Below are positions 2,358-31,081 of a stretch of 38,389 nt of DNA, one piece after another (the first letter of the stretch is position 1; each line of letters opens with the position of its first letter). The DNA lies in contig JANQSP010000016.1 in the NCBI GenBank assembly GCA_028283955.1, forward strand, positions 1-38,389. Direction: 5' to 3'. The notes under the pieces were generated by a model that made no database searches, was not told the DNA's origin, and saw only the letters and a list, made by a program, of their open reading frames with translations. Made by a program: the position numbers and the translations under genes. This stretch comes from Bdellovibrionales bacterium (GTDB lineage: Bacteria > Bdellovibrionota > Bdellovibrionia > Bdellovibrionales > UBA1609).

Positions 2358-4886
2358 ATGGCGGATGGAATTTATATTTATGGTGCCAGAGAACATAATC
2401 TTAAATCCATTAACACTTTCATTCCCCGTAATAAGATCAGTGTTGTAACCGGTCTGAGTGGCAGTGGGAAGTCTTCCCTTGTGTTTGATACTGTGTATGC
2501 GGAGGGGCAGCGCCGTTATGTGGAAAGCCTTTCTTCTTACGCACGGTTTTTTATTTCCCAGATGAAAAAACCGGATTTGGATGCGATTACAGGTCTGTCA
2601 CCCGCTGTGGCTATTGATCAAAGGTCCATCAGCCATAGTCCCCGTTCCACTGTGGGTACGGTGACGGAAATTTATGATTATCTTCGATTGTTATTTGCCA
2701 GACTGGGGACTCCTTATTGTGTAGAACATCAAAAACCTTTGGAAAAAAGCTCTGTTAATCAGATTGTAAAGGAAATCATGTCTCTTCCAAAAGGCACACG
2801 TTTTTTTGTATTGGCTCCTGTGGCTCAGGGGAAGAAAGGGGAATTTTTAAGGGAATTTGAAAAATTTTTATCAGTTGGTTATACCCGTGCCCGTGTAGAT
2901 GGGAAATGGATTGAATTGGCTACAGCAAAAAAACTTTCCAAAAGAAAAGATCACTTTATTGATCTTCTGATTGATCGTCTGATTGTGGAACCCGGGTTTC
3001 ATTCCCGTTTAAAAGAAAGTGTGCAAAAAGCGGTGGATTTAACAGAGGGGCGGATTAAAGTGGAACTGGTGGGTAGGGAAGGGGCAGTGAAAAACTATTC
3101 CATTCATGCCACCTGTCCGGTATGTCTTGCCGGCTTTCCGGAATTGGAACCGAAGCTTTTTAGCTTTAACAATCCCAAAGGGGCTTGTACGGAGTGCAAT
3201 GGACTTGGGTATTTATACGAAGAGGAGGTAGAGGATACAGATAGAAATGCCGATTTGGAAAAAGAGGATATTTTAAAAGTGTGTTCTTATTGTGAGGGCA
3301 CACGCCTTCAACCTTTCGCTCTTAATGTGAAGATCAAAGATAAAAATATTGCTGAACTGTCTTCTCTCAGTATGGATGCATTATATACATTTTGTTCCCG
3401 TTTAAAGTTTCCTTCGCAGTATAAAATGGTAGCGGACAAGATTTTAAAAAAAATCAATTCTGATTTGGGTTTTTTAAGTAAGATGGGGTTGGGCTATCTT
3501 AGTTTGGATCGCCCGATTCAAACTTTATCAGGTGGAGAGGCACAAAGAATCCGCCTTATGTCTCAAATCTCCTCACCTTTAATTGGTGTTTTATATGTGT
3601 TGGATGAACCCAGTATCGGCTTACATCCGAAAGACCATGATCGTCTTTTAAATATTTTATTTCGTATAAGAGATCGTGGAAACACGGTTTTAATGGTGGA
3701 GCATGATGAAAAAACCATTCGCTCTGCTGAACACCTTATTGATCTGGGACCCTTGGCGGGAACAAAAGGGGGGCATATTATAGCGGAAGGGTCTGTTAAG
3801 GATATTATGAAATCTTCAGATTCCATCACAGGTCAGTATTTGTCCGGTAGAAAAAAAGTTCCTCTTCCAAATAGAAGAAAGGTCAACAAAGGAAAGGTGC
3901 TGGAAGTGAGAGGGGCTGAGGGGAATAATTTAAAAAAAGTGAATGTGAAAATACCCTTATCCTGTTTAGTGGGGGTGACCGGAGTTTCAGGAAGCGGGAA
4001 GAGTACTCTTATTATGGATACTCTTTACAGAGCCCTGTTAAAACATTTGAATCGATATTCTTTTATAGAACCTTGTGCTTATCAGGAAATAAAGGGGTTG
4101 GATTACCTGGATAAGGTTGTAGCGGTTAATCAAAAGCCTATCGGGAGAACTCCCCGTTCCGTGCCGGCCACTTATGTGGGTATTATGTCTTCCATTCGTT
4201 CCTTAATGGCTCAGGTTCCTGCGGCCCGTGTTCGTGGTTATACCCCCGGGGATTTTAGTTTTAATATTAAAGGAGGGCGCTGTGAACAATGTTCCGGTAC
4301 AGGGCAAATTAAACAGGAGATGCTGTTTTTACCTTCGGCTGTTTTACCTTGTGATATTTGTCAGGGACGTCGTTATTCGAATGAAATTTTAAGTGTTTTA
4401 TATAAAGGGAAAAATATAAACGATATTTTGAATATGGATATTTCCACGGCTCGAAAGTTTTTTGCCCACCACAGGCTTATTCAATATCAACTCAGTTTAT
4501 TGGAACAGGTGGGGTTGGGTTATCTGACTTTGGGGCAAAATTCGATGACTCTTTCAGGAGGGGAGGCACAGAGAATCAAGCTGACTCGTGAACTGGCAAA
4601 GAAAAACACCAGTCGAACTCTTTATATTTTGGATGAACCCACTACGGGACTACACTTTAAAGATATTGAACAGCTTATTTTTGTTTTAAAAAAGCTAACG
4701 GAAAAAGGCAGCACAGTAATAGTCATAGAACATCAAATGGATGTCATTAAATCCTGTGATTATCTTATTGATTTAGGTCCTGGAGGAGGAAGGCATGGAG
4801 GGAAAGTGGTGGCTACCGGTACACCGGAGCAATTAGCTCAGTCTTCCAAGAGTGTAACGGCTCCTTTTTTAAAATCAGCTCTTTAA
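2358..4886 (+). CDS. uvrA: Excinuclease ABC subunit A lacking the insertion domain
   Basis: Damage-sensing ABC ATPase of nucleotide excision repair, which loads UvrB at lesions. Both ATPase halves are intact: Walker A GLSGSGKSS (32-40) and GVSGSGKST (542-550), two LSGGEAQRI signatures and two LDEP Walker B motifs. The UvrB-binding domain (about 120-250) is present and close to E. coli. The first zinc module has CPVC (253-256) and CTEC (277-280); the second has CEQC (642-645) and CDIC (665-668). At 842 residues it is about 100 shorter than the usual 940. The deficit is confined to the stretch between GLG (282-284) and CSYCEGTRL (309-317), about 24 residues here against about 120 in E. coli. 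This is the insertion domain. The AAAGG ribosome site lies 21 bases after folE2. Confidence 0.95.
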   Translation: MADGIYIYGAREHNLKSINTFIPRNKISVVTGLSGSGKSSLVFDTVYAEGQRRYVESLSSYARFFISQMKKPDLDAITGLSPAVAIDQRSISHSPRSTVGTVTEIYDYLRLLFARLGTPYCVEHQKPLEKSSVNQIVKEIMSLPKGTRFFVLAPVAQGKKGEFLREFEKFLSVGYTRARVDGKWIELATAKKLSKRKDHFIDLLIDRLIVEPGFHSRLKESVQKAVDLTEGRIKVELVGREGAVKNYSIHATCPVCLAGFPELEPKLFSFNNPKGACTECNGLGYLYEEEVEDTDRNADLEKEDILKVCSYCEGTRLQPFALNVKIKDKNIAELSSLSMDALYTFCSRLKFPSQYKMVADKILKKINSDLGFLSKMGLGYLSLDRPIQTLSGGEAQRIRLMSQISSPLIGVLYVLDEPSIGLHPKDHDRLLNILFRIRDRGNTVLMVEHDEKTIRSAEHLIDLGPLAGTKGGHIIAEGSVKDIMKSSDSITGQYLSGRKKVPLPNRRKVNKGKVLEVRGAEGNNLKKVNVKIPLSCLVGVTGVSGSGKSTLIMDTLYRALLKHLNRYSFIEPCAYQEIKGLDYLDKVVAVNQKPIGRTPRSVPATYVGIMSSIRSLMAQVPAARVRGYTPGDFSFNIKGGRCEQCSGTGQIKQEMLFLPSAVLPCDICQGRRYSNEILSVLYKGKNINDILNMDISTARKFFAHHRLIQYQLSLLEQVGLGYLTLGQNSMTLSGGEAQRIKLTRELAKKNTSRTLYILDEPTTGLHFKDIEQLIFVLKKLTEKGSTVIVIEHQMDVIKSCDYLIDLGPGGGRHGGKVVATGTPEQLAQSSKSVTAPFLKSAL

Positions 4887-5437: not shown

Positions 5438-8400
5438 ATGAAATATGCAGAGAAAGTCATTCGAAACGAAATCCGTAATATATACTCCCTTAACTTTCAT
5501 TTTTGGATAGGGTGTGCATTGATGTTGTTTTTAAACACATCCTGTATCAGGCCGGAGGCAACACCTACTGAAGAGGAACAAAAACGTGGTGTGAAAGATG
5601 TTTTTGCTCCGGGAACAGCGGATGGCATATACAGTGTTAAAAAATTTCGTGTTATTGAATTCCCTTCCAGTCAATTGGATAAAGCTGTACTGGATAATAA
5701 AGCTTTAAAGGTAAAAACAGTTAAGACGGGAGAGCCTGCCAAGATCTCTATTAGTACGGAAGGGACTTTTGTTGATCCTGCATCTAATATTTCTTTTGTT
5801 AATCAATATTATTTTCTGAAATATAATCCTATAGGGGTGGACCCGGAAAATGAAGATCAGGATCTGTTGATTCGTCTTTTAGGTAAAGTGGAAAAGTTTA
5901 AAGGTTTTCCGGATACGGTTTATCATATTGTCCCTCATTTAGAGGATAATTACCTTATTTTGTATCGTCTGTCTGATCCGGAGAAGGTGCCTTATGATGA
6001 ACTGCCTATTTCCATTAAAGTAGGTGATAAAGTGGCCACACCTCTTGTGGGCTATCCCGTTGATTATTGTGAAGCTGAAAAAATATTAAATGCCAATCTT
6101 GAAGAAACAGGACAAAGTCGTCCTAGATGTATAGGGGTGTCGAGGAAGACGGCTACATATATTCACCTGGTGGAAGACAGTAAAGCAGTTTTTGAATACC
6201 TACCAAAAGTGGATATTTTTCCAAGTGATTTCTTTGATGGCGAGTGGTTTTTTGTAAAAACGATCATTAAATCTTCCGGAGATCGGGCAACAGGATTCCA
6301 TCAGTCTTTCAATTCAGCCAATCTTGTGGAGTTTGATAAAACTCCTGACAGTTTAAAGGTGTTGGATGCCAGCGGATATGAAATAGATGAAAAGGATCAG
6401 GTTACCGGTTTTTCTATTCCTGTGGAGTGGAAAGAGTATGAAATGGCACGTGATTCGGATATTATTCATCGGTTTGCAGAAAGGGAAAGTGAAACAGGTA
6501 CAGATATCACCAGGGATTATTTTAGAATTAAATTCCAGGAATTGGTACAGAATGAAGTGAGTGTAAGCTCAAGCACTGTTGCAGAGACGGACAGTGTTTT
6601 TATTACAGATGACTATTTTAGTTTTACTATTAAAGTAAGTGGTACATCAAATAGATGGGTTAAATATGCTTTTAAAAAAGCGGTTAAAAATACAAATTAT
6701 GTTGAGAAAAGATGGTTTGAAACAGACAGCTCTCAGTTTTTTCCTGCGTTTTCCGTTGCCAGGAAATATTATGATAGACAAGCGTCCTTTCATACAGAAG
6801 AAGATAAAAAGAAGTTTGAACGTGTTACTCGTTTTGATCCATATACACTAGATGATTCAGTAACAGTAATAAAATGGTATTTTTCAAAACAGACTCCTAA
6901 AGATGATTGGGTACGTGATTTTGGGCGTACTGCGGTTGATTATTGGGATAAAGCGTTTCAGGAAGCGGGAAAAGGTTCAAACTATAAAATCCGGGTTGTA
7001 TTGGATGAAAGTACGGATAGAGAGTTAGGGGATATACGGTATAATATAATTAACTTGATTCAGTCTCCTCAGTCTGATGCCTTTCTCTTGGGTCTTGGAC
7101 CTAATATAGCGAATCCCATTACAGGAGAGGTGTTATCCGCGACGGCTAATGTTTGGGTCACTAATGTTATTGACATGTATGTTCGGTTATTAAGAAAATA
7201 CATTCGTTTTCACATTTATCCTCCTCCCTGGAAACCTCTTCCTGATTCACCTGGAGTCACTGATTTTATGCATGAAAAAATTAAAAAACTTTGTGCATCA
7301 CGTGATGATAACCATCCTGACGTTCCCAGTGTGACTGAGTTTATCAGTGATAAAAAGAAAGCAGGCAAAGTTTTTCATCATCCCACTGCTCCCATTTTAG
7401 GGGATAATAAAGTCATAGAAGTTTGCGCTCATAAAATAGGAGCTATTGACGTTTTAAACACAACATTACATGAAATGGGTCATGGTTTTGGGTACAGGCA
7501 TGTCTTCTCTGCTTCAGCGGATAAAGATAATTTTTATGAAAACTATGATGAAGTTAAACAGATTTTCGGTGAGCATGTTGCAATGGATGTGACACATAAT
7601 CATAAACATCCGGCAAAATTTTCTTCTGTAATGGATTATGGTAACAGTCAGTTTCCCGGATTAACCGTTCCAGGAAAATATGACATAGCGGTTACCAAGT
7701 TTTTGTATTTTGATAAAGTGGATTTGGCAAATGGGGGAACCTTGGATATTCCGGCTGGAGCTGATAATGATCCAAACAACCTTCAAAAAGATATTTTAAC
7801 AGTGGCCAGAGAACAGAGTAAAGAGGTGAAAAAGTACAGAGTTTGTGGAGGTAAGGCACTTGAAAAGTCTGATTCAGAAATTCATCCGGATGATGCCCTT
7901 TGTGCTCGGTGGGATTATGGAACGACTCCATTGGAGGTATTACAGAATGCTATTCGTAATAACTGGGATAGTATAATGATAGGTAGAAATCGTTACGACA
8001 GTCGATTTCTTACATACAGGATACGAGGCGGTACAAGTGTTACACAACATATTCCCAGGTTGTATAACAGATGGTCGTGGTATCGTAGTGAATTACTTCA
8101 GTCAAAAGGGCTAAATTTGGCGGATTTTTCCTTCTTAGATTCTGGCGATGTTACACGCTATAAAGGTTTGATGGAAGCGGAAGCGGCAGCCGATCCAGAG
8201 TTTAAGCTTTATTATGAAATAACAGAACCTCTTTTTGAGTTTTATAAAAAGTTATTTTTCCTCCCTGTTAAGCATTGCGTTTATAACAAGGATGGTGAAT
8301 ATCAAGCTGTGGCTTTGGAAATCATAAAGAAAAACGTGGAGAATGATTATTTAGAGAGTTCCAGGGAGCTATTTGTAGATTGTCAGTCTCCGGCCGTCGG

Positions 8401-9367
8401 GAAGTGGGCTGATAAGAATAGTATGGGAAGCCTTGTTGCAGAAGTGGGGTACTTGGGCAGACATACAGAATATTTCTTAAAAGCCAAGCAGGAAGACCCT
8501 TATGATGAGTTGTCCATCTTTATGGCTCCTGTGGACACTATGAATAAACCTGTTTTCCTTGCGCAAATGGAAGGGAAGAATCCACGTTCTGTGTGGGAAA
8601 GTCTCATTAGTCTTATGCAACCTCTTATTTATGAACCTGATTTTGGTAACCGGTTTATGGAAGCACAAATAGCGTATTTGTTGGAGGGAACGGATATAGA
8701 CACCTATATTGATCCTGGAAAGTGGGTTGAAAAGTCAGAGGAATTAGGTAGAGATTTACCTCGCCCACTGCCTCGTATCTTATCTTATCAGATAGACTCT
8801 GGGATAGCTCAGCATATAATGGTGCACATGCAGCAACCGGTTGTGCCAATAGATTTACTTTTAAGAAGAAATAGTTTTCTTGAAAAACTGAACACAGACG
8901 CATCAAAAATAGACTCTATGAGTGCGGATAAACAAGCGGCGAGGAGAAGGAAGTTTGGCATGCTTGGATTCGCAGTTAATCAACAGTTTGTTGATATGCT
9001 TACAAGCCCTCATCAATACGCAAGAGCATATCCTGTTCTCGCTGAGATTTATAATGAATATGAGAGTAAAGCAGCAAGAGGTGAACTCCCTACTCAAACA
9101 GTAACAACACCCTCTGGAGAGGAAGAAGCGCCAATTACAGTTTTGGACTATCTATTGGATCACCCTGATGTGTGTGTAGATCAGAACAAGCAGAACGCCG
9201 TTGCACCATATGTTCTTGGTGAGGAAAGTCACCGTGCAAACTTATGTCGAAGATTTAATGAATATAGTAAATGTATCAATGAACATGCTACAAACTTTTG
9301 TGAAGATATAGAGAATAAAAAAGCATATATTCGATTTATACATGGTGTGATGGGATTGTCACAGTAG
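5438..9367 (+). CDS. Very large metzincin-type zinc metalloprotease, putative lipoprotein
   Basis: A 1309-residue exported protein. The N-terminus has a long signal (hydrophobic about 18-33) ending at LNTSC, with Cys36 as likely lipidation site; the lipobox is imperfect (Asn at -3). The catalytic motif HEMGHGFGYRH (His678, Glu679, His682, His688) fits HExxHxxGxxH, and SSVMDY with Met732 is a plausible Met-turn, both defining metzincins. Upstream, GDIRYN (about 531), GPNI..P.TGEVLSA and WVTNV resemble the 'zinc-dependent metalloprotease' DUF4953/DUF5117 group. About 500 residues follow the catalytic region without a recognised domain. The substrate is unknown; cell-envelope location is inferred. 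AAAGG lies ten bases before the ATG. The following barrel-like gene on the same strand, 149 bases away, may be functionally linked. Confidence 0.85.
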   Translation: MKYAEKVIRNEIRNIYSLNFHFWIGCALMLFLNTSCIRPEATPTEEEQKRGVKDVFAPGTADGIYSVKKFRVIEFPSSQLDKAVLDNKALKVKTVKTGEPAKISISTEGTFVDPASNISFVNQYYFLKYNPIGVDPENEDQDLLIRLLGKVEKFKGFPDTVYHIVPHLEDNYLILYRLSDPEKVPYDELPISIKVGDKVATPLVGYPVDYCEAEKILNANLEETGQSRPRCIGVSRKTATYIHLVEDSKAVFEYLPKVDIFPSDFFDGEWFFVKTIIKSSGDRATGFHQSFNSANLVEFDKTPDSLKVLDASGYEIDEKDQVTGFSIPVEWKEYEMARDSDIIHRFAERESETGTDITRDYFRIKFQELVQNEVSVSSSTVAETDSVFITDDYFSFTIKVSGTSNRWVKYAFKKAVKNTNYVEKRWFETDSSQFFPAFSVARKYYDRQASFHTEEDKKKFERVTRFDPYTLDDSVTVIKWYFSKQTPKDDWVRDFGRTAVDYWDKAFQEAGKGSNYKIRVVLDESTDRELGDIRYNIINLIQSPQSDAFLLGLGPNIANPITGEVLSATANVWVTNVIDMYVRLLRKYIRFHIYPPPWKPLPDSPGVTDFMHEKIKKLCASRDDNHPDVPSVTEFISDKKKAGKVFHHPTAPILGDNKVIEVCAHKIGAIDVLNTTLHEMGHGFGYRHVFSASADKDNFYENYDEVKQIFGEHVAMDVTHNHKHPAKFSSVMDYGNSQFPGLTVPGKYDIAVTKFLYFDKVDLANGGTLDIPAGADNDPNNLQKDILTVAREQSKEVKKYRVCGGKALEKSDSEIHPDDALCARWDYGTTPLEVLQNAIRNNWDSIMIGRNRYDSRFLTYRIRGGTSVTQHIPRLYNRWSWYRSELLQSKGLNLADFSFLDSGDVTRYKGLMEAEAAADPEFKLYYEITEPLFEFYKKLFFLPVKHCVYNKDGEYQAVALEIIKKNVENDYLESSRELFVDCQSPAVGKWADKNSMGSLVAEVGYLGRHTEYFLKAKQEDPYDELSIFMAPVDTMNKPVFLAQMEGKNPRSVWESLISLMQPLIYEPDFGNRFMEAQIAYLLEGTDIDTYIDPGKWVEKSEELGRDLPRPLPRILSYQIDSGIAQHIMVHMQQPVVPIDLLLRRNSFLEKLNTDASKIDSMSADKQAARRRKFGMLGFAVNQQFVDMLTSPHQYARAYPVLAEIYNEYESKAARGELPTQTVTTPSGEEEAPITVLDYLLDHPDVCVDQNKQNAVAPYVLGEESHRANLCRRFNEYSKCINEHATNFCEDIENKKAYIRFIHGVMGLSQ

Positions 9368-9516: not shown

Positions 9517-10476
9517 ATGAATAGTTTACGACTTCTGGTTTTCTTTTCTTTATTTGCCTTTTCCCTGGAAAGCGGGGCTGTTGCCGGTTCTATTACTGAT
9601 CCCGCTTTATCTACGGAATCATCTGTCTCCTCTTCTCAATCCTTGCGTGGCTCTATTAAAACAAGAATCACTCGTAATATCAGGATTAGTGCCGATAGTT
9701 TTACGAGAGCGGATCGGCAGGATGGTCTGTTTGATACTTTATTTACAAGAGAGGACTTAAACCTTAGTTATCCATTGGCTTTGGCTCTTCCTTTCTTGGA
9801 GAATGTTTCTTTTTTTGATGATGTGGATATGTTTTTTGTTTTAGGTTATCAGCGACCTATATATGCAACAGCTCTGGAGATTAAAGAATATTGCTGGAGT
9901 TCTTATATTTGTTTCAATGATATTAACCTGGGAGCCTCTAAACCTATTATTCAAGGTGATCGTTTTTCAGCCGGGTCTTCTGTGTATTTGAGTTTACCTT
10001 TTTCAAGGAGTTCTTTTAAGCGGTCTTTTCTAGGGGGAGTGGGTGCTTCATTAAATATGAGTTATAACTTGTTTTCTCACTCTTATTTTAAACTATCCAC
10101 TATTTCCATTCATTCTTTAGATTTAAATTTTCACACATATAAAATGGCTAATGTTAATGGAACGGCTTATAATGTGCCGCTTACTACATTTAATCAGTTG
10201 GGTTTTCAATTTAAATATTCAAAATCGGCTTTTATTCCTGCATTGTTTTTTTATGGCAGTCATAGTCTTGCGGTCAATTACATTGGTAACCTCTATCATA
10301 GGGTTAGTTTAAATATGTCTGCGGCCTGGTCTATTAACAAGAAGATCAAAATTGTTGCAGGTTTAAACTGGGGAGATCGTATACTGAAGCCAAAAGGTTC
10401 ATCTGTGGCTGAGGATACTGTTGTATTTCATGCTGATCGCACTTTTTTAAGTTTTGGTGCCAGTTATTCTTTTTAA
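9517..10476 (+). CDS. Putative outer-membrane beta-barrel protein
   Basis: 319 residues, no recognised family. The N-terminus is a signal peptide (hydrophobic 4-16, likely cleavage after AVA at 23), followed by a Ser/Thr-rich stretch. The rest alternates short amphipathic strands rich in Tyr, Phe and Ser, and the last residues are FGASYSF, the terminal-Phe pattern recognised by the BAM machinery. One Cys pair (about residues 130-137) might form a disulfide. The leader is very AT-rich and shows no Shine-Dalgarno sequence. The gene converges on birA, four bases away. Function is unknown; it could be a porin-like or surface protein. Confidence 0.7.
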   Translation: MNSLRLLVFFSLFAFSLESGAVAGSITDPALSTESSVSSSQSLRGSIKTRITRNIRISADSFTRADRQDGLFDTLFTREDLNLSYPLALALPFLENVSFFDDVDMFFVLGYQRPIYATALEIKEYCWSSYICFNDINLGASKPIIQGDRFSAGSSVYLSLPFSRSSFKRSFLGGVGASLNMSYNLFSHSYFKLSTISIHSLDLNFHTYKMANVNGTAYNVPLTTFNQLGFQFKYSKSAFIPALFFYGSHSLAVNYIGNLYHRVSLNMSAAWSINKKIKIVAGLNWGDRILKPKGSSVAEDTVVFHADRTFLSFGASYSF

Positions 10477-10480
10477 ACCT

Positions 10481-11056
10481 TTAAGTTTTTATACAAAGTC
10501 TGATTTTTTTGTTAATTTGTTTATTCCATTCATCTAAAAATAAAAACCATTCTTTCTCATTAATTTTTTTGGTGATATGTTCCTGTAAATGAGTAAAGGG
10601 ACCGGGTGTTGGATGGTTGAATATATTCATGCCTACACCAATGATGAGTTGTTGAAGATCTCCTTTACTTATTGCTTCTATGAGTAAACCGGCTAGTTTT
10701 CTGTTGCTAATATAAATATCGTTTGGTTTTTTTATCTCAAAAGGGCATTTTTTCCATGAATGGTTAAGAGCTTCATATAAAGCCAGGCACATTAAAGTAG
10801 TTGTGACAGGTTGCGGAGCTTTTTTAAGAGAATAACTCCAGCTAACCATCATATCACTGTTGATCCATTGCTGGTTTCTCCTACCCCGTCCTTTTGTTTG
10901 CGATTCAGCAATAAAAAGAAGAGATTTATATTTTTTATTATTAGTGAAGTGTTCTTTGGCTTTGTCATTGGTGCTGGTAGTTTGAATGTAGAATAAAAAA
11001 GGATAGTTCCTTTTTTCAGCCCATTTTTTTGTCCATTGTGCAATTAAGGAAGGCAT
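10481..11056 (-). CDS. birA: Short biotin--[acetyl-CoA-carboxylase] ligase
   Basis: Attaches biotin to the carrier domain of acetyl-CoA carboxylase through biotinyl-AMP. Visible family motifs are TTSTNDKAK (26-34), the adenylate loop GRGRRNQQW (56-64), KKPNDI (109-114) and RKLAGLLIE (119-127) with the catalytic Lys at about 120, then IIGVGMNI. At 191 residues it has neither the N-terminal winged helix of regulatory BirA nor the C-terminal SH3-like domain, so it should be a minimal ligase without repressor function. The usually invariant Trp of KWPND is Lys here. It starts 21 bases after the receiver-domain gene, with no obvious ribosome site, suggesting coupling to that gene. Confidence 0.85.
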   Translation of the reverse strand: MPSLIAQWTKKWAEKRNYPFLFYIQTTSTNDKAKEHFTNNKKYKSLLFIAESQTKGRGRRNQQWINSDMMVSWSYSLKKAPQPVTTTLMCLALYEALNHSWKKCPFEIKKPNDIYISNRKLAGLLIEAISKGDLQQLIIGVGMNIFNHPTPGPFTHLQEHITKKINEKEWFLFLDEWNKQINKKIRLCIKT

Positions 11057-11077: not shown

Positions 11078-12664
11078 TTATTCGTCATTGTCATTTGGAT
11101 TTTCTTCTTCTTTCAGCAGTTTATCCAGTTCTTTTGTGATGAGTTGTTTTGCCAATTCGGGTACTACCTGCCATACAGCCTTTTCTGTTGTTGTTTGGAT
11201 GATGTCTCGACTGCTTTCCTTAATGAGATGCTCTAGTTGTTTTTCCACTTCTTCTTTGATTTTCCTGTTAGCCCATTGTTTAATTTCCTCAGTTATCTGA
11301 TCTTTCAAGGTGTTTAAATCAGATTCTTCTAGTTTATCTTCTTTTATTTTTGTGGGTTCCGGCTCTGAAGGAACCTGTAAAATCTTTACGTCTGTAGCAC
11401 TCTTTTTTTCTTCATCAGGGGAAGTATCCGTTTCCGGTTGGTCCGATGTTTGTGTGGTCGTGACAGATTTAGCCTCCTCCTCTTCGGGGAATAAATCAGC
11501 AGTTTGTTTTTGTTGTTTTACAGGTGGCGGTTCTGTTTCCTGTTGTACTGATGTTTGTGTGGTCGTAATAGGTTTAACTCCCTCTTCTTCCGGGAATATG
11601 TCAGTGGTTTGTTTTTGTTGTTTTACAGGTGGCGGTTCTGTTTCCTGTTGTACTGATGTTTGTGTGGTCGTAACAGGTTTAACTCCCTCTTCTTCGGGGA
11701 ATAAATCAGCGGCTTGCTTTTGTTGTTTTACAGGTGATGATTCCATTTCCAGTTTATCTGATACTTGCTCTTCAGTTGTGACCGGTTTGATTCCTTCCTC
11801 TTCGGGAAATAAATCGGCGGATTGTTTTTGTTGTTTTTCAGGGGGCGGTTCTGTTTCCTGTTGTACTGATGTTTGTGTGGTCGTAACAGGTTTAACTCCC
11901 TCCTCTTCGGGGAATAAATCAGCGGCTTGTTTTTGTTGTTTTTCAGGTGGTGATTCCATTTCCTGTTGTACTGATGTTTGTGTGGCCGTAACAGGTTTAA
12001 CTCCCTCTTCTTCCGGGAACATGTCGGTGGTTTGTTTTTGTTGTTTTGCAGATGATGATTCCGTTTCCGGTTGATCCGTTGTTTGTGCAGCGATAGGTTG
12101 AATTGTTTCATTAGAGGCTGGTTTTTTATCGTCGGAAGCACTGTCTTTTTGGTTTAATTCAGATTGTTTTACAGTGGTCTTGGAGGAAAACTCAGGACTT
12201 TGCTTTGTACCGCTTTCTTCTTTGAAGTCAGGGATAGAAGGAAATTTAAGATGTTCTGTCAATACGTTACTTTTTGTTTTTGGTATAAAACGGTTAACAA
12301 GCTCTCGAAGTTTACCCGCCTCAATGGGCTTTTTTAAAAAGTCCTGTGCAACAGAGGTTTTCAGCTCTTCGTGACTCAAATCTTCTTTTGCCATTAGAAT
12401 AATGGGGATATTTTTTAATTGTTCTTTTTTTTCATTAATTTGATTTTTTATATCATCCGAAAAAGCGGCGTCTATAAATATAATATCCGGAACACTGTAT
12501 TGAACTTTCTCGACCAGTTTGGAAGTTTGATCTATTCGATGCACGATTGGACGATAAGGATATAAAATGTGAAAAAAAATCTTTTGAGTAATAGGAGATG
12601 AGTCATATAAAATAATTTCGATTCCCATAAGAAGGAATAAACTGCTTTTGTGTGATTTAGTCAA
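11078..12664 (-). CDS. Receiver-domain protein with tandem repeats and conserved helical C-terminus
   Basis: 528 residues in three parts. Residues 14-128 form a response-regulator receiver domain: Asp21 of the acidic pocket, probable phospho-acceptor Asp65 (IIFIDAAFSD) and Lys in FLKKPI (109-114); the usual Thr/Ser switch residue is not conserved. Residues about 195-415 are six near-identical 35-residue repeats plus a degenerate seventh, centred on KQQKQ..DLFPEEEG and rich in Pro, Gln and Glu, probably disordered. The last about 75 residues are helical, with VWQVVPELAKQLITKELDKLL, a motif resembling the C-termini of some deltaproteobacterial receiver proteins and PopZ-like proteins (recalled, not searched). 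The start is TTG with AAAGGA upstream; ATG at 12628 is an alternative. No output DNA-binding domain is present, so a scaffold or adaptor role is inferred. Confidence 0.75.
   Translation of the reverse strand: MTKSHKSSLFLLMGIEIILYDSSPITQKIFFHILYPYRPIVHRIDQTSKLVEKVQYSVPDIIFIDAAFSDDIKNQINEKKEQLKNIPIILMAKEDLSHEELKTSVAQDFLKKPIEAGKLRELVNRFIPKTKSNVLTEHLKFPSIPDFKEESGTKQSPEFSSKTTVKQSELNQKDSASDDKKPASNETIQPIAAQTTDQPETESSSAKQQKQTTDMFPEEEGVKPVTATQTSVQQEMESPPEKQQKQAADLFPEEEGVKPVTTTQTSVQQETEPPPEKQQKQSADLFPEEEGIKPVTTEEQVSDKLEMESSPVKQQKQAADLFPEEEGVKPVTTTQTSVQQETEPPPVKQQKQTTDIFPEEEGVKPITTTQTSVQQETEPPPVKQQKQTADLFPEEEEAKSVTTTQTSDQPETDTSPDEEKKSATDVKILQVPSEPEPTKIKEDKLEESDLNTLKDQITEEIKQWANRKIKEEVEKQLEHLIKESSRDIIQTTTEKAVWQVVPELAKQLITKELDKLLKEEENPNDNDE
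11435..12080 (-). repeat. Six-copy tandem repeat, 105-bp period, inside the receiver-domain gene
   Basis: The anchor TGTTGTACTG recurs at 11541, 11646, 11859 and 11964, that is 105-base spacing with one 213-base (105+108) interval where a variant copy lies. Each unit encodes 35 residues around FPEEEG. All units stay in frame, so copy-number change would lengthen or shorten the protein without disrupting it. Confidence 0.9.
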
Positions 12665-12844: not shown

Positions 12845-13426
12845 ATGGCTGTATTGGAAATCCTGAAATTTCCTGATTCGCGGTTAAGGCGTAAATGCAC
12901 TCCTGTTGAAAAAGTGACGGATGATTTAGTGCGGCTGGCTGATGATATGCTGGAAACCATGTATGCTGCTCATGGTTTGGGCCTTTCCGCTATTCAGGTA
13001 AATCATTTTGTACGTCTTTTAACGGCGGATACGCGGGCACTTCAATCTAATGAAAGTGAACGATATGAAAGTACAGAGATGGGGCAGTATGAAAAAGAGA
13101 TTATCCAGCCGGTTGTTTTGTTTAATCCGGAAATAATCAGTAAATCGGGAGAAATAATTTTTAAAGAAGGGTGTTTGAGTTTTCCTTCTTATTATGCGGA
13201 TGTAAAAAGGTCCGCTGTAATTGAAGTACAGGGAATGGATAAATCAGGGAAAGTGGTGACAATCAAAACAGATGGAGTACTGGCCGTGTGTATTCAACAT
13301 GAGATTGATCATTTGGATGGAAAATTATTTATAGATCATTTAAGCCCTGTCAAAGCGGATCTGCTTCGTGCTCAAATTAAAAAATATGGATATCCTGATT
13401 CTGGCAGACAAGAAGAAATGTTGTGA
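12845..13426 (+). CDS. def: Peptide deformylase
   Basis: Removes the formyl group from N-terminal formyl-methionine of new proteins in the cytoplasm. All three motifs are present: GLGLSAIQV (44-52, Ser replacing the usual Ala), EGCLS (108-112) with the metal-binding Cys, and QHEIDH (151-156) with the two His ligands and catalytic Glu. At 193 residues it is longer than E. coli Def (169), mostly through an insertion at about 63-90 between motifs I and II. The ribosome site GAGGG precedes the ATG. The stop codon overlaps the GTG start of fmt, so the deformylase and formyltransferase are translationally coupled. Confidence 0.97.
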   Translation: MAVLEILKFPDSRLRRKCTPVEKVTDDLVRLADDMLETMYAAHGLGLSAIQVNHFVRLLTADTRALQSNESERYESTEMGQYEKEIIQPVVLFNPEIISKSGEIIFKEGCLSFPSYYADVKRSAVIEVQGMDKSGKVVTIKTDGVLAVCIQHEIDHLDGKLFIDHLSPVKADLLRAQIKKYGYPDSGRQEEML

Positions 13427-14388
13427 AACAACAAATATTCCCTATTGTATTTCTTGGTACAGATAAGATATCCCTTAAGGGTTTAAATCATCTTTTACAT
13501 CATCCCGAATTCGAGATTAAAGGGGTTGTGACACAAAAAGAGAAACGAAAGGGAAGAGGTTTGTATTCCCGCCTTCCTCCTGTGGCACAAAGAGCGAAAG
13601 ACCTGTCTCTGCCTGTGTTAATGCCGGACAATTTAAAAGATCCGGGTTTTTTATCTGATGTGAAAAATTTAAAAGCCCGGTGGGCTGTTTTACTGTCTTA
13701 TGGGAAAATACTACCACCTGAATTCTTATCTTTATTCCCAGGTAGAGCCTTGAATTTTCATGCCAGTCTGCTTCCTCGTTGGAGAGGGGCGGCCCCTGTT
13801 CAAAGGGCTATTATGGCAGGGGATCGGGAGCTGGGAATGAGTCTTCAGGTTATGAAAGCTCAATTGGATGCGGGGCCTTTGATCGGAGTGCGTGCATTTG
13901 AATTGACAGAACAAATGGATGCTATAGACGCTTTTAAAAAGATGGAGTTTTTAATTAAAGAACTTTTGTCGGATTTACTAGGATATATGAAAGGTCGTTG
14001 TGTTCCTGTTCCACAAAAGGAGGGTGAGGTTATATATGCAAGGAAAATTGATAAAAAGGAGAGTCAAATTGTATGGAATGAATCAGCTGTTAATATATTT
14101 AACAAGGTGAGAGCTTTGGTTATGGGGCCTCAGGCTTATACCTTTTACAAAGGAAAAAGAGTAAAAATATATAAAGCAAAATCTTGTCTTGAAAGTGAGG
14201 GTGAAGCTTGCCCCGGTCAGATTGTGGATATAGGCTCTGACTATATTAAAGTAGCTTGTCAAAAATCTACATTGTCCGTTCTCCAGCTTCAACCGGAGTC
14301 TAAAAAAATAATGTCTGCCGGAGACTATATAAGAGGTTATAATTTAAAAGAAGGTGTTTACCTGGGAAAGGATGAAAAAAAACAATGA
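13423..14388 (+). CDS. fmt: Methionyl-tRNA formyltransferase
   Basis: Formylates initiator methionyl-tRNA using 10-formyl-tetrahydrofolate. The N-terminal catalytic domain shows the Asn111/His113/Asp149 triad in NFHASLLPRWRGAAP and the following LDAGP, and the SLLP loop. The C-terminal OB-like tRNA-binding domain (about 205-315) is present, so the 321-residue protein is full length. It starts with GTG whose last bases form the TGA stop of def (GTGA overlap), and it ends in an ATGA overlap with rpe. The def-fmt pairing is common in bacteria; the addition of rpe follows the same tight spacing. Confidence 0.97.
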   Translation: MKQQIFPIVFLGTDKISLKGLNHLLHHPEFEIKGVVTQKEKRKGRGLYSRLPPVAQRAKDLSLPVLMPDNLKDPGFLSDVKNLKARWAVLLSYGKILPPEFLSLFPGRALNFHASLLPRWRGAAPVQRAIMAGDRELGMSLQVMKAQLDAGPLIGVRAFELTEQMDAIDAFKKMEFLIKELLSDLLGYMKGRCVPVPQKEGEVIYARKIDKKESQIVWNESAVNIFNKVRALVMGPQAYTFYKGKRVKIYKAKSCLESEGEACPGQIVDIGSDYIKVACQKSTLSVLQLQPESKKIMSAGDYIRGYNLKEGVYLGKDEKKQ

Positions 14389-15059
14389 TATTGAACAAAG
14401 AACCACATCATTTGGTGGCACCCAGTATTTTATCAGCTGATTTTTCCCGTTTGGGAGAAGAGGTGCGGAATGTGGAATCAGCTGGAGCGGATCGTCTTCA
14501 TATTGATGTGATGGATGGTCATTTCGTACCCAATCTGACAATAGGCGCTCCTGTCGTTAAGAGTTTAAAAAAAATCAGTACTCTCCCTTTGGATGTGCAC
14601 TTGATGGTAAGCAAACCGGAAAATATCCTTTCCTCTTTTATTTCCGCCGGTGCGGATTCTATTACTATTCATTTGGAGTCCACTAATTATCCTGAAAAAG
14701 TGTTGAAGCGGATTCGTCAGGAAAAAGTGTTGGCAGGCCTGACTTTGAAGCCGGCTACTCCTGTAGAAAGAATGTTTCCTTTTTTACCTTTTTTGGATTT
14801 GGTTTTGGTTATGACCGTTGAGCCCGGATTTGGAGGACAGTCTTTGCTTCCGGATCAGGTTTCGAACATTTCGGCTGTAAAAGAAGAACTGGTTCGACAG
14901 GGTTTGAATAATGTGCCTGTCCATGTTGATGGGGGGGTTAATCTTCAGACGTTGCCGCTTTTACCTTCTGCCGATGTGTTAGTGGCCGGTCATTTTATAT
15001 TTACTCATAAAAGCTATAAAGAGGCCATTTCTCTTCTGAAAAGTGGAAGTGTTTCTTGA
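14385..15059 (+). CDS. rpe: Ribulose-phosphate 3-epimerase
   Basis: TIM-barrel enzyme interconverting ribulose 5-phosphate and xylulose 5-phosphate in the pentose phosphate pathway. Metal and catalytic residues are visible: Ser near PSILSAD (13-19), His39 and Asp41 in LHIDVMDGHFVPN, His72 in DVHLMV, and the Asp of HVDGGVN near residue 183, with the phosphate-binding loop VEPGFGGQ. The length of 224 residues is normal. The ATG overlaps the stop of fmt by four bases. Confidence 0.97.
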   Translation: MILNKEPHHLVAPSILSADFSRLGEEVRNVESAGADRLHIDVMDGHFVPNLTIGAPVVKSLKKISTLPLDVHLMVSKPENILSSFISAGADSITIHLESTNYPEKVLKRIRQEKVLAGLTLKPATPVERMFPFLPFLDLVLVMTVEPGFGGQSLLPDQVSNISAVKEELVRQGLNNVPVHVDGGVNLQTLPLLPSADVLVAGHFIFTHKSYKEAISLLKSGSVS

Positions 15060-29374: not shown

Positions 29375-31081
29375 TTAAGCATCCAACTGGGTATTATAAA
29401 GAACCTCTTCAATGGTGGTGATGCCTTTGCAGATCTTTTCTATACCATTTTGACGAAAAGTAACCATTCCTTTTTTGGAGGCGGCTTTTTTAATAACATG
29501 GCTGTCTTTATGATTCATAATGAGTGTGCGTATGTCTTCATCCGTGATTAGTATTTCCTGTATCATGGTTCTGCCTACGTAACCTTTGAATTCACAATTT
29601 TTGCATCCTTTGGCTTTAAATATTTTGGAAGGTATTTTTATATCCGGATCTTCACTTGTGAGAAACTGTATATCCCGTTTTAAGGGTTTGTAAGCCTCAC
29701 GGCATTCCGGGCACAACACTCTTACCAATCTTTGAGCCATGACCCCCATAATAGAGGTGGCAATTAAAAAGGGTTCTCCACCCATATCAATAAGACGGGG
29801 AAACACAGAGGCGGCATCATTTGTGTGTATTGTGGAGAGAACAAGGTGTCCGGTCAAAGAAGCATTAATGGCGATTTTCATTGTTTCGATATCTCTGATT
29901 TCACCTACCATGATGGTATCAGGGTCTTGACGCAAAATAGAGCGGAGACCGCTGGCAAAGGTTAAACCTATTTTCGGGTTAACCTGAATTTGTCCAATGC
30001 CTTTAATGCGTCTTTCTACAGGATCTTCCACTGTAATAATGTTTTGATCTATAGAGTTAATTTGACTAAGGGCAGCGTATAGAGTGGTGGACTTTCCGCT
30101 TCCGGTGGGGCCGGTAATAAGAATAATTCCGTAATTTTTATCCAGAAGCGTATTAAAGGATTTGAGATTTTTTTTGGAAAAACCCAACTCATCTAGAGCT
30201 AACATCAGCTGGGTACGATCTTGTAAACGAAGGACCAGTCTTTCACCGAAAGGAGTAGGAATGGAACTGAGTCGGATCTCAATGTCTTTTCCCGCTAATC
30301 GCAGGTGGATTTGTCCGTCCTGTGGCAGCCTTTTTTCTGCAATATTTAAATCACCCATAATTTTTATTCTGGAAATAATGGCATTTTGTAGGCTTTTTGG
30401 AGGTTTAAAAACAGAGTAAAGAGCTCCATCCACTCTAAATCGCACCACCAGTTCTTTTTCATAAGGTTCAATGTGAATATCAGAGGCTCTTTCCTTAACA
30501 GCTTTGAAAAGCAAAGTATTAACCAGCTTAATAACCGGTGCGGAGTCTTCCGTGTCCAGAAGGTCAATGACAGTGCTTTCCAGGTCATATTCCTCTTTAC
30601 TTATGTCGGCGAACTCCTCCAGCTCACCTGAGCTTCTTTCATAGACACTGTTAATGGCTTCCTGAACTTTTGAACCTAAACTGATAACGGGGCGGACTTC
30701 CTTTTTAAATTTTAACTTTAAATCAGAAAACACATGGAGATTAAGAGGATTGGCGCTGAGAATATGGATAGCATGTTTATCCGATTTAAACGGAAGCACC
30801 ATGTTTGTTTTGGCATAGCTGATGGGAAACTGTTGTATAAGATCTTCTTCAATTTCCTGTACGGGAACTTCCTTTATGAATGGAATCTGTAAATGTTTGC
30901 ACAAAAAAGATAAAGCTTCCTCTCCGGAAGAAAAATCTTTTTTTTGCTTTTCGAGTGCTTGTTGAAGGCTGATTCCCCTTTTATTTTTGGAGTGTAAAAT
31001 GGATTGCAGTTGGTTTGCGCTGAGAGTGCTGGATTTTAAAATAAGGGATTCATAAGAATTGGTATCCATAAGAGGCATCAT
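29375..31081 (-). CDS. gspE: Type II secretion ATPase GspE
   Basis: Cytoplasmic ATPase of 568 residues that drives pseudopilus assembly. N-terminal T2SSE_N-like domains (1-150) are followed by the CTE core: Walker A GPTGSGKST (324-332), Asp box ITVEDPVE (349-356), Walker B DTIMVGEIRD (388-397) and His box TGHLVLSTIHTND (410-422). A C4 zinc module with CPEC (457-460) and CKNC (493-496) follows. Two in-frame ATGs lie at the start; the first was used. It is divergent from the M50 protease. It is the first gsp gene in transcription order, but gspF does not follow directly. Confidence 0.97.
   Translation of the reverse strand: MMPLMDTNSYESLILKSSTLSANQLQSILHSKNKRGISLQQALEKQKKDFSSGEEALSFLCKHLQIPFIKEVPVQEIEEDLIQQFPISYAKTNMVLPFKSDKHAIHILSANPLNLHVFSDLKLKFKKEVRPVISLGSKVQEAINSVYERSSGELEEFADISKEEYDLESTVIDLLDTEDSAPVIKLVNTLLFKAVKERASDIHIEPYEKELVVRFRVDGALYSVFKPPKSLQNAIISRIKIMGDLNIAEKRLPQDGQIHLRLAGKDIEIRLSSIPTPFGERLVLRLQDRTQLMLALDELGFSKKNLKSFNTLLDKNYGIILITGPTGSGKSTTLYAALSQINSIDQNIITVEDPVERRIKGIGQIQVNPKIGLTFASGLRSILRQDPDTIMVGEIRDIETMKIAINASLTGHLVLSTIHTNDAASVFPRLIDMGGEPFLIATSIMGVMAQRLVRVLCPECREAYKPLKRDIQFLTSEDPDIKIPSKIFKAKGCKNCEFKGYVGRTMIQEILITDEDIRTLIMNHKDSHVIKKAASKKGMVTFRQNGIEKICKGITTIEEVLYNTQLDA

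Follow-up and report, generated by a model that had tools for sequence, protein, structure and literature searches.

A minus-strand open reading frame of 528 aa (11078-12664, TTG start at 12664) in the window, the whole 38,389-nucleotide stretch of DNA analysed here, raised the question of which protein joins a receiver domain to a repeat-filled linker and a helical C-terminus, and whether it is, as the original prediction had it, a scaffold with a receiver switch and a string of docking motifs. Its host belongs to the Bdellovibrionota and has a small genome (G000; 1.35 Mb assembled, 91% complete); with two congeners, G001 and G002, it makes up the window genus, represented here by three species. 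The gene is romR, encoding the polarity hub of Myxococcus and Bdellovibrio. The protein family is a known one, and what is new in the window is an altered receiver and a rebuilt linker. In our view this RomR orthologue probably acts as a scaffold at the cell pole without need of phosphorylation, its linker having been remade through the expansion of repeats.

Architecture and gene order of a RomR orthologue

Homologues started at a Met aligned with residue 13 of the 528-aa frame, corresponding to the ATG at 12628, and this start, giving a product of 516 aa plus stop (11078-12628, minus strand), is therefore likelier than the TTG at 12664. An antisense frame (11310-12074, plus strand, 254 aa) was rejected as a gene and judged a by-product of the repeat, probably kept open only by a period divisible by three. 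Three parts made up the protein: an N-terminal receiver fold, a disordered linker carrying six units of 105 or 108 bp in frame, and one long C-terminal helix. AlphaFold2, supplied with an alignment of the window protein and 55 homologues (mean pLDDT 64, pTM 0.40), returned a confident receiver fold up to residue 120 (block pLDDT 84-96), a linker with no secondary structure (37-53 over residues 141-420), and a single helix (81-95 from residue 441 on; 69 for 431-440). The receiver domain (residues 1-130; 12239-12628, minus strand) scored below the curated Pfam cut-off for Response_reg (E 5.8e-4), yet Foldseek searches of the PDB matched this part of the model to DivK (1mav, E 1.8e-7) and other receivers, bearing out the original assignment of the domain.

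Published descriptions have RomR begin with a receiver, continue through a linker that lacks structure and end in RomR-C, a helical region whose Trp and Pro are invariant (PMC3441718). In M. xanthus, RomR-C is reported to oligomerise, to be needed for polar position and to bind MglC (PMC10329633), with its Trp required for MglC binding (PMC12719032). The helix of the window protein (residues 435-509 of the 516-aa form; 11102-11326, minus strand), which the original prediction had rightly called conserved, is RomR-C: within the segment EKAVWQVVPELAKQLITKEL, Trp486 and Pro490 were the counterparts of the conserved RomR-C residues, matched against the published description of RomR-C and not against the M. 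xanthus sequence. The pattern W-x-hydrophobic-hydrophobic-P was present in 64 of 92 homologues and absent from 28, and was thus not invariant in the phylum.

Protein matches came from 34 of the 39 genomes searched, a set to which the window's own genome belonged. Profile A1 matched in all 12 genomes searched with it, including the five earlier misses; eight of the 12 were absent from the profile, and the window protein itself was part of it. These matches spanned receiver and RomR-C, and the only other hit in G000 was one weak receiver (E 4.7e-5), which speaks against a better RomR elsewhere in that genome. A scan of named genomes with 13 homologues as queries yielded 91 relatives, of which 80 were kept. 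A Bdellovibrio-type taxon was named in 74 of the 80 locus titles, among them B. bacteriovorus kdesi (L060), and the other six read bacterium, Oligoflexia, Proteobacteria (twice), Deltaproteobacteria and a metagenome bin labelled Streptomyces. L060 fitted the published RomR_Bd landmarks D11E12, D55, K107 and M20 with a constant offset of 2. As the named loci were fetched with the receiver patterns L[MI]WS[GH]FM[EDS] and L[RK]VLLADES, the share with D-E and Trp is inflated among them; a table of 37 genomes (the 39 without G014 and G038) was independent of these patterns. The 121 extracted proteins reduced to 96 distinct sequences, of which 95 entered the receiver table (L047 had no start) and 92 the linker counts (L047 and the truncated L056, L081 and L093 were dropped).

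Gene order was conserved around the locus. Downstream of romR lay a gene for a birA-domain biotin-protein ligase (10481-11056, minus strand), and divergently upstream lay def-fmt-rpe (12845-15059, plus strand). Among 49 loci of at least 12 kb, including that of B. bacteriovorus kdesi, birA was downstream in 49, def and fmt were divergent upstream in 46 and rpe in 45. The window carried the mirror image of the B. bacteriovorus order, without the intervening nadC and lptF/G-type genes. In 11 further regions, mostly from small-genome relatives, birA was beside romR in 11 and def in six; two of the five regions lacking def there end at contig ends, and none of def, fmt and rpe occurred within the 15 kb around romR in G002. 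The possibility that a different protein family had arrived at the receiver and helix layout by chance might draw on the low whole-length identity of the window protein to its 55 homologues (18-30%, alignment A3) and on the Pfam score below cut-off, but conserved gene order, profile matches over both receiver and RomR-C (though with the window protein in the profile) and the Trp/Pro of the helix leave it scarcely credible. Architecture, helix and gene order support the assignment to RomR, and with it the original suggestion of a scaffold, as RomR is known from experiments as a polar hub. A PopZ-like polar organiser, considered on account of the acidic linker and helical end, was dropped once RomR fitted.

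Several other features of the neighbourhood were recorded. No nadC lay beside romR in the window, G001, G002, G003, G015 or G018, whereas the other six of 11 regions had one; the lineages without it were those whose receiver retained neither the second acidic residue nor the family Trp (see below). Proteins of 1309 and 319 aa (5438-9367 and 9517-10476, plus strand) had no Pfam match and were conserved beside birA in G001. UvrA (842 aa; 2358-4886, plus strand) lacked 119 residues relative to a solved UvrA of 962 aa (reference 308-426), with 19 residues in their stead, at what is presumably the site of an insertion domain.

Alterations of the receiver

Receiver positions were assigned by aligning the family with structurally solved receivers. 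All 95 RomR receivers compared had kept the phospho-acceptor Asp and the Lys, so phosphorylation may still occur. The acidic pair in the window protein was D-S, with Ala at the Thr/Ser switch position and a deletion in the loop after the phospho-Asp. Across the three species of the genus the acidic pairs were D-S, D-P and S-S (the last in G002), the switch place was Ala and the loop carried a deletion. Since acid pocket, loop and switch position are all altered while Asp and Lys stay, a degenerate or pseudo-receiver is the likelier and simplest reading for the window genus, judged from these residues.

Trp occupied the place of the conserved receiver Thr/Ser (position 83, family numbering) in 88 of 95 Bdellovibrionota RomR proteins and in 30 of 37 in the unbiased genome table, the locus set being biased towards Trp by its search pattern. 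Seven homologues in the 37-genome table lacked this Trp; all belonged to the 11 genomes no larger than 2.1 Mb, and none to the 26 above that size (Fisher P 3e-5, uncorrected for kinship and with assemblies that vary in completeness). The second acidic residue was absent in 12 homologues. Six of these had D-N with the Trp retained, and some of the six came from genomes near 3 Mb, so loss of the second acid alone is no mark of small genomes. In a midpoint-rooted tree of birA, def, fmt and rpe, the window genus was grouped with a support of 1.0; it joined G003 and G015 at a support of 0.22 only, and G018 stood apart. Decay of the receiver in a single event was accordingly set aside as a claim, because with that grouping the neighbour-gene tree fits one loss as well as several.

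The original prediction saw the receiver as a switch; such a switch would alter by phosphorylation how linker and helix present their binding sites. The retained Asp and Lys and the high-confidence predicted fold are in its favour, but the missing acidic partner, the loop deletion, the Ala at the Thr/Ser position and the confinement of Trp losses to small genomes (with the caveat of kinship) tell against it, and we regard a working switch in the window protein as improbable. For M. xanthus, work cited in PMC6428892 disagrees on whether phosphorylation of the RomR receiver matters.

The start of the receiver was also compared between L060 and its relatives. Over RomR codons 2-20 (L060:6001-6060 and relatives), L060 differed from each of 11 relatives by 0-13 synonymous and 0-2 amino-acid changes, with few changes of any kind in its close relatives. 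Such constraint fits poorly with the published M20 start, which drops the acid pocket, in a comparison biased by the use of part of this stretch as a search pattern.

The repeat array and the linker motifs of the family

The linker contained a tandem array of 6.3 copies of a 105-bp unit (11427-12087, minus strand; TRF period 105, 82% matches, score 824), typically ESPPEKQQKQAADLFPEEEGVKPVTTTQTSVQQET. Six FPEEE cores followed one another at spacings of 35, 35, 36, 35 and 35 residues, the third unit having a diverged tail and then a 108-bp spacing. The six in-frame units of the original prediction were thus confirmed, with the frame always kept and one unit of 108 bp. Its description of them as near-identical was somewhat strong, as pairwise DNA identity among the six 105-base units was 60-96%, or 77-96% when unit 3 was left out.

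Arrays of this kind were rare in the family. TRF found some repeat in 13 of 96 distinct RomR genes, and units of more than 100 bp in only two: the window gene (105 bp, 6.3 copies) and that of G001 (117 bp, 2.0-2.3 copies), its sister in the neighbour-gene tree. romR of the third congener, G002, had none. The window's unit matched six times in G000, always at the romR locus, and had no match in G001, G002 or G003; a mobile element or genome-wide repeat was rejected because the unit was confined to romR in G000. Because the two congeners' arrays differ in unit and number and the third has none, the proposal that unequal exchange changes linker length is supported in outline, through a comparison between species of the genus.

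Within the unit, 14 of 35 columns never changed their amino acid, seven of them despite synonymous changes, and the FPEEE codons varied only synonymously among the six units. The other 21 columns changed amino acid, several solely through unit 3. FPEEEG itself, put forward as a docking core, fared poorly: FPEE[EG] occurred in one of 92 linkers, that of the window, which led us to discard it as a conserved core. The sequence shared by the genus was instead [IV]-x-P-[VI]-T, present in all three species and in five of the six window units. Its narrower form [IV]-[DNK]-P-[VI]-T occurred five, three and one times in the three congeners, where the chance of at least one occurrence in shuffled linkers was 0.007, 0.010 and 0.004, for a pattern chosen after viewing the sequences; a similar FDPVT was found in one other homologue (L018).

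Alternatively, the array may bind nothing and have arisen neutrally, through slippage or unequal exchange, in a disordered linker under relaxed constraint as the genome shrank. The 21 changing columns (several through unit 3 only) are what a passive spacer would show, the unit turned up in a single species when four genomes were searched, and linker length varied between 71 and 451 residues across 92 homologues, eight of which exceeded the window's. Weighing against neutrality are the 14 columns invariant in amino acid, half of them in spite of synonymous change and FPEEE among these, and the occurrence of the post hoc [IV]-[DNK]-P-[VI]-T pattern in all three species. Neutral origin and persistence is a serious possibility, if not the one that we favour.

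In the wider family, linkers carried motifs of their own. Compared with shuffled linkers, [DE].?F..[VILM].[LF] occurred in 65 of 92 linkers (mean 4.0 when shuffled), W.{4}[LITS]..[FYH] in 48 (mean 1.7) and W.[MLI][DE].[FL] in 35 (mean 0.4), while [FYI][VI][ILVFT]P[EQD][ED] occurred in 12 (0.2 when shuffled) and FL.[FMLH]P in none of the 92 linkers as cut. The contrast with shuffled linkers is descriptive only, because the patterns were chosen post hoc and the homologues are related. The pattern scan of the 92 linkers found none of the three recurrent motifs in the window genus. For B. bacteriovorus, the central region of RomR has been called non-conserved relative to M. xanthus (PMC6428892). 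Among the literature matches listed for RomR with repeats or linear motifs, PMC12719032 was the sole paper with the word RomR, which is weak evidence of absence.

Partner genes, proposed role and comparison with known systems

G000 encoded MglA, with a match of E 3.1e-64 to solved MglA structures, the best of which we take to be from M. xanthus. The Arf model matched in 14 of 14 genomes, in frames of 196-212 aa; further checks covered the G000 frame only. The model was unspecific, being also positive in 12 of 14 control genomes. PilT-family pilus ATPases scored above cut-off in 12 of 12 genomes, and a related ATPase in the window itself (29375-31081) scored below the PilT cut-off. Roadblock proteins of the MglB/MglC type (PF03259) were found in none of 14 genomes and in three of 14 control genomes, so that MglC, the known partner of the RomR-C Trp, may be absent; MglB is reported to be absent from B. 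bacteriovorus (PMC6428892).

We postulate that RomR-C, as in M. xanthus, oligomerises the window protein and places it at one pole, so that by analogy the helix would anchor and cluster it. The receiver would offer a surface for docking instead of switching by phosphorylation, and the disordered linker may space and recruit the partners through which MglA and type IV pili are directed at that pole. The linker of the window genus, without its relatives' common motifs, would have been rebuilt by tandem duplication, with the six repeats setting its reach and charge and perhaps, via the shared [IV]-x-P-[VI]-T core, the number of sites for one partner. A bolder extension is that RomR in small-genome Bdellovibrionota passed from a regulator whose conserved linker motifs each occur once to a scaffold with a dead receiver and a binding valency set by its number of tandem repeats, a copy-number-tunable hub evolving by concerted evolution, which we think rather unlikely. 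The units of 35 aa in one species and 39 aa in its congener, with their common [IV]-x-P-[VI]-T core, could be read in this way, again with low probability.

In B. bacteriovorus, romR is reported to be essential and its product to be an early marker of the prey-invading pole (PMC6428892, PMC11025332), with several likely direct partners (PMC11025332). In a set of small-genome lineages, receiver residues and linker motifs have gone while romR keeps its place next to birA; in one lineage repeats have filled the linker anew. The side results of most use are the motifs that recur in RomR linkers and the group of lineages without them. Motifs, losses and refilling make testable which part of RomR recruits and whether its receiver is needed.

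Among known systems, FrzS of M. xanthus offers a pseudo-receiver in a polar protein, the rest of which is not known to be related to the window protein. The FrzS receiver (PDB 2i6f) shares the receiver fold and ranked 40 among the structural matches of our model. M. xanthus RomR (MXAN_4461) is alike by description, with a REC domain, a Pro-rich unstructured linker and a Glu-rich helical RomR-C bearing the conserved Trp and Pro (PMC3441718, PMC12719032), but it works with the MglB/MglC roadblock proteins and Frz, whereas roadblock matches numbered zero in the 14 Bdellovibrionota genomes. B. bacteriovorus RomR (Bd2761; L060 in strain kdesi) shares its gene neighbours with the window and, like it, combines a receiver, a variable linker and a conserved C-terminus with the presence of MglA; its receiver is reported not to be regulated by phosphorylation (PMC6428892). 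L060 differs from the window protein in having D-E and Trp where the receiver of the latter is altered, a linker of 172 as opposed to 321 residues with no TRF repeat, and the family motifs, recognised by eye as EEFSAVPL and WAHQDLTKF.
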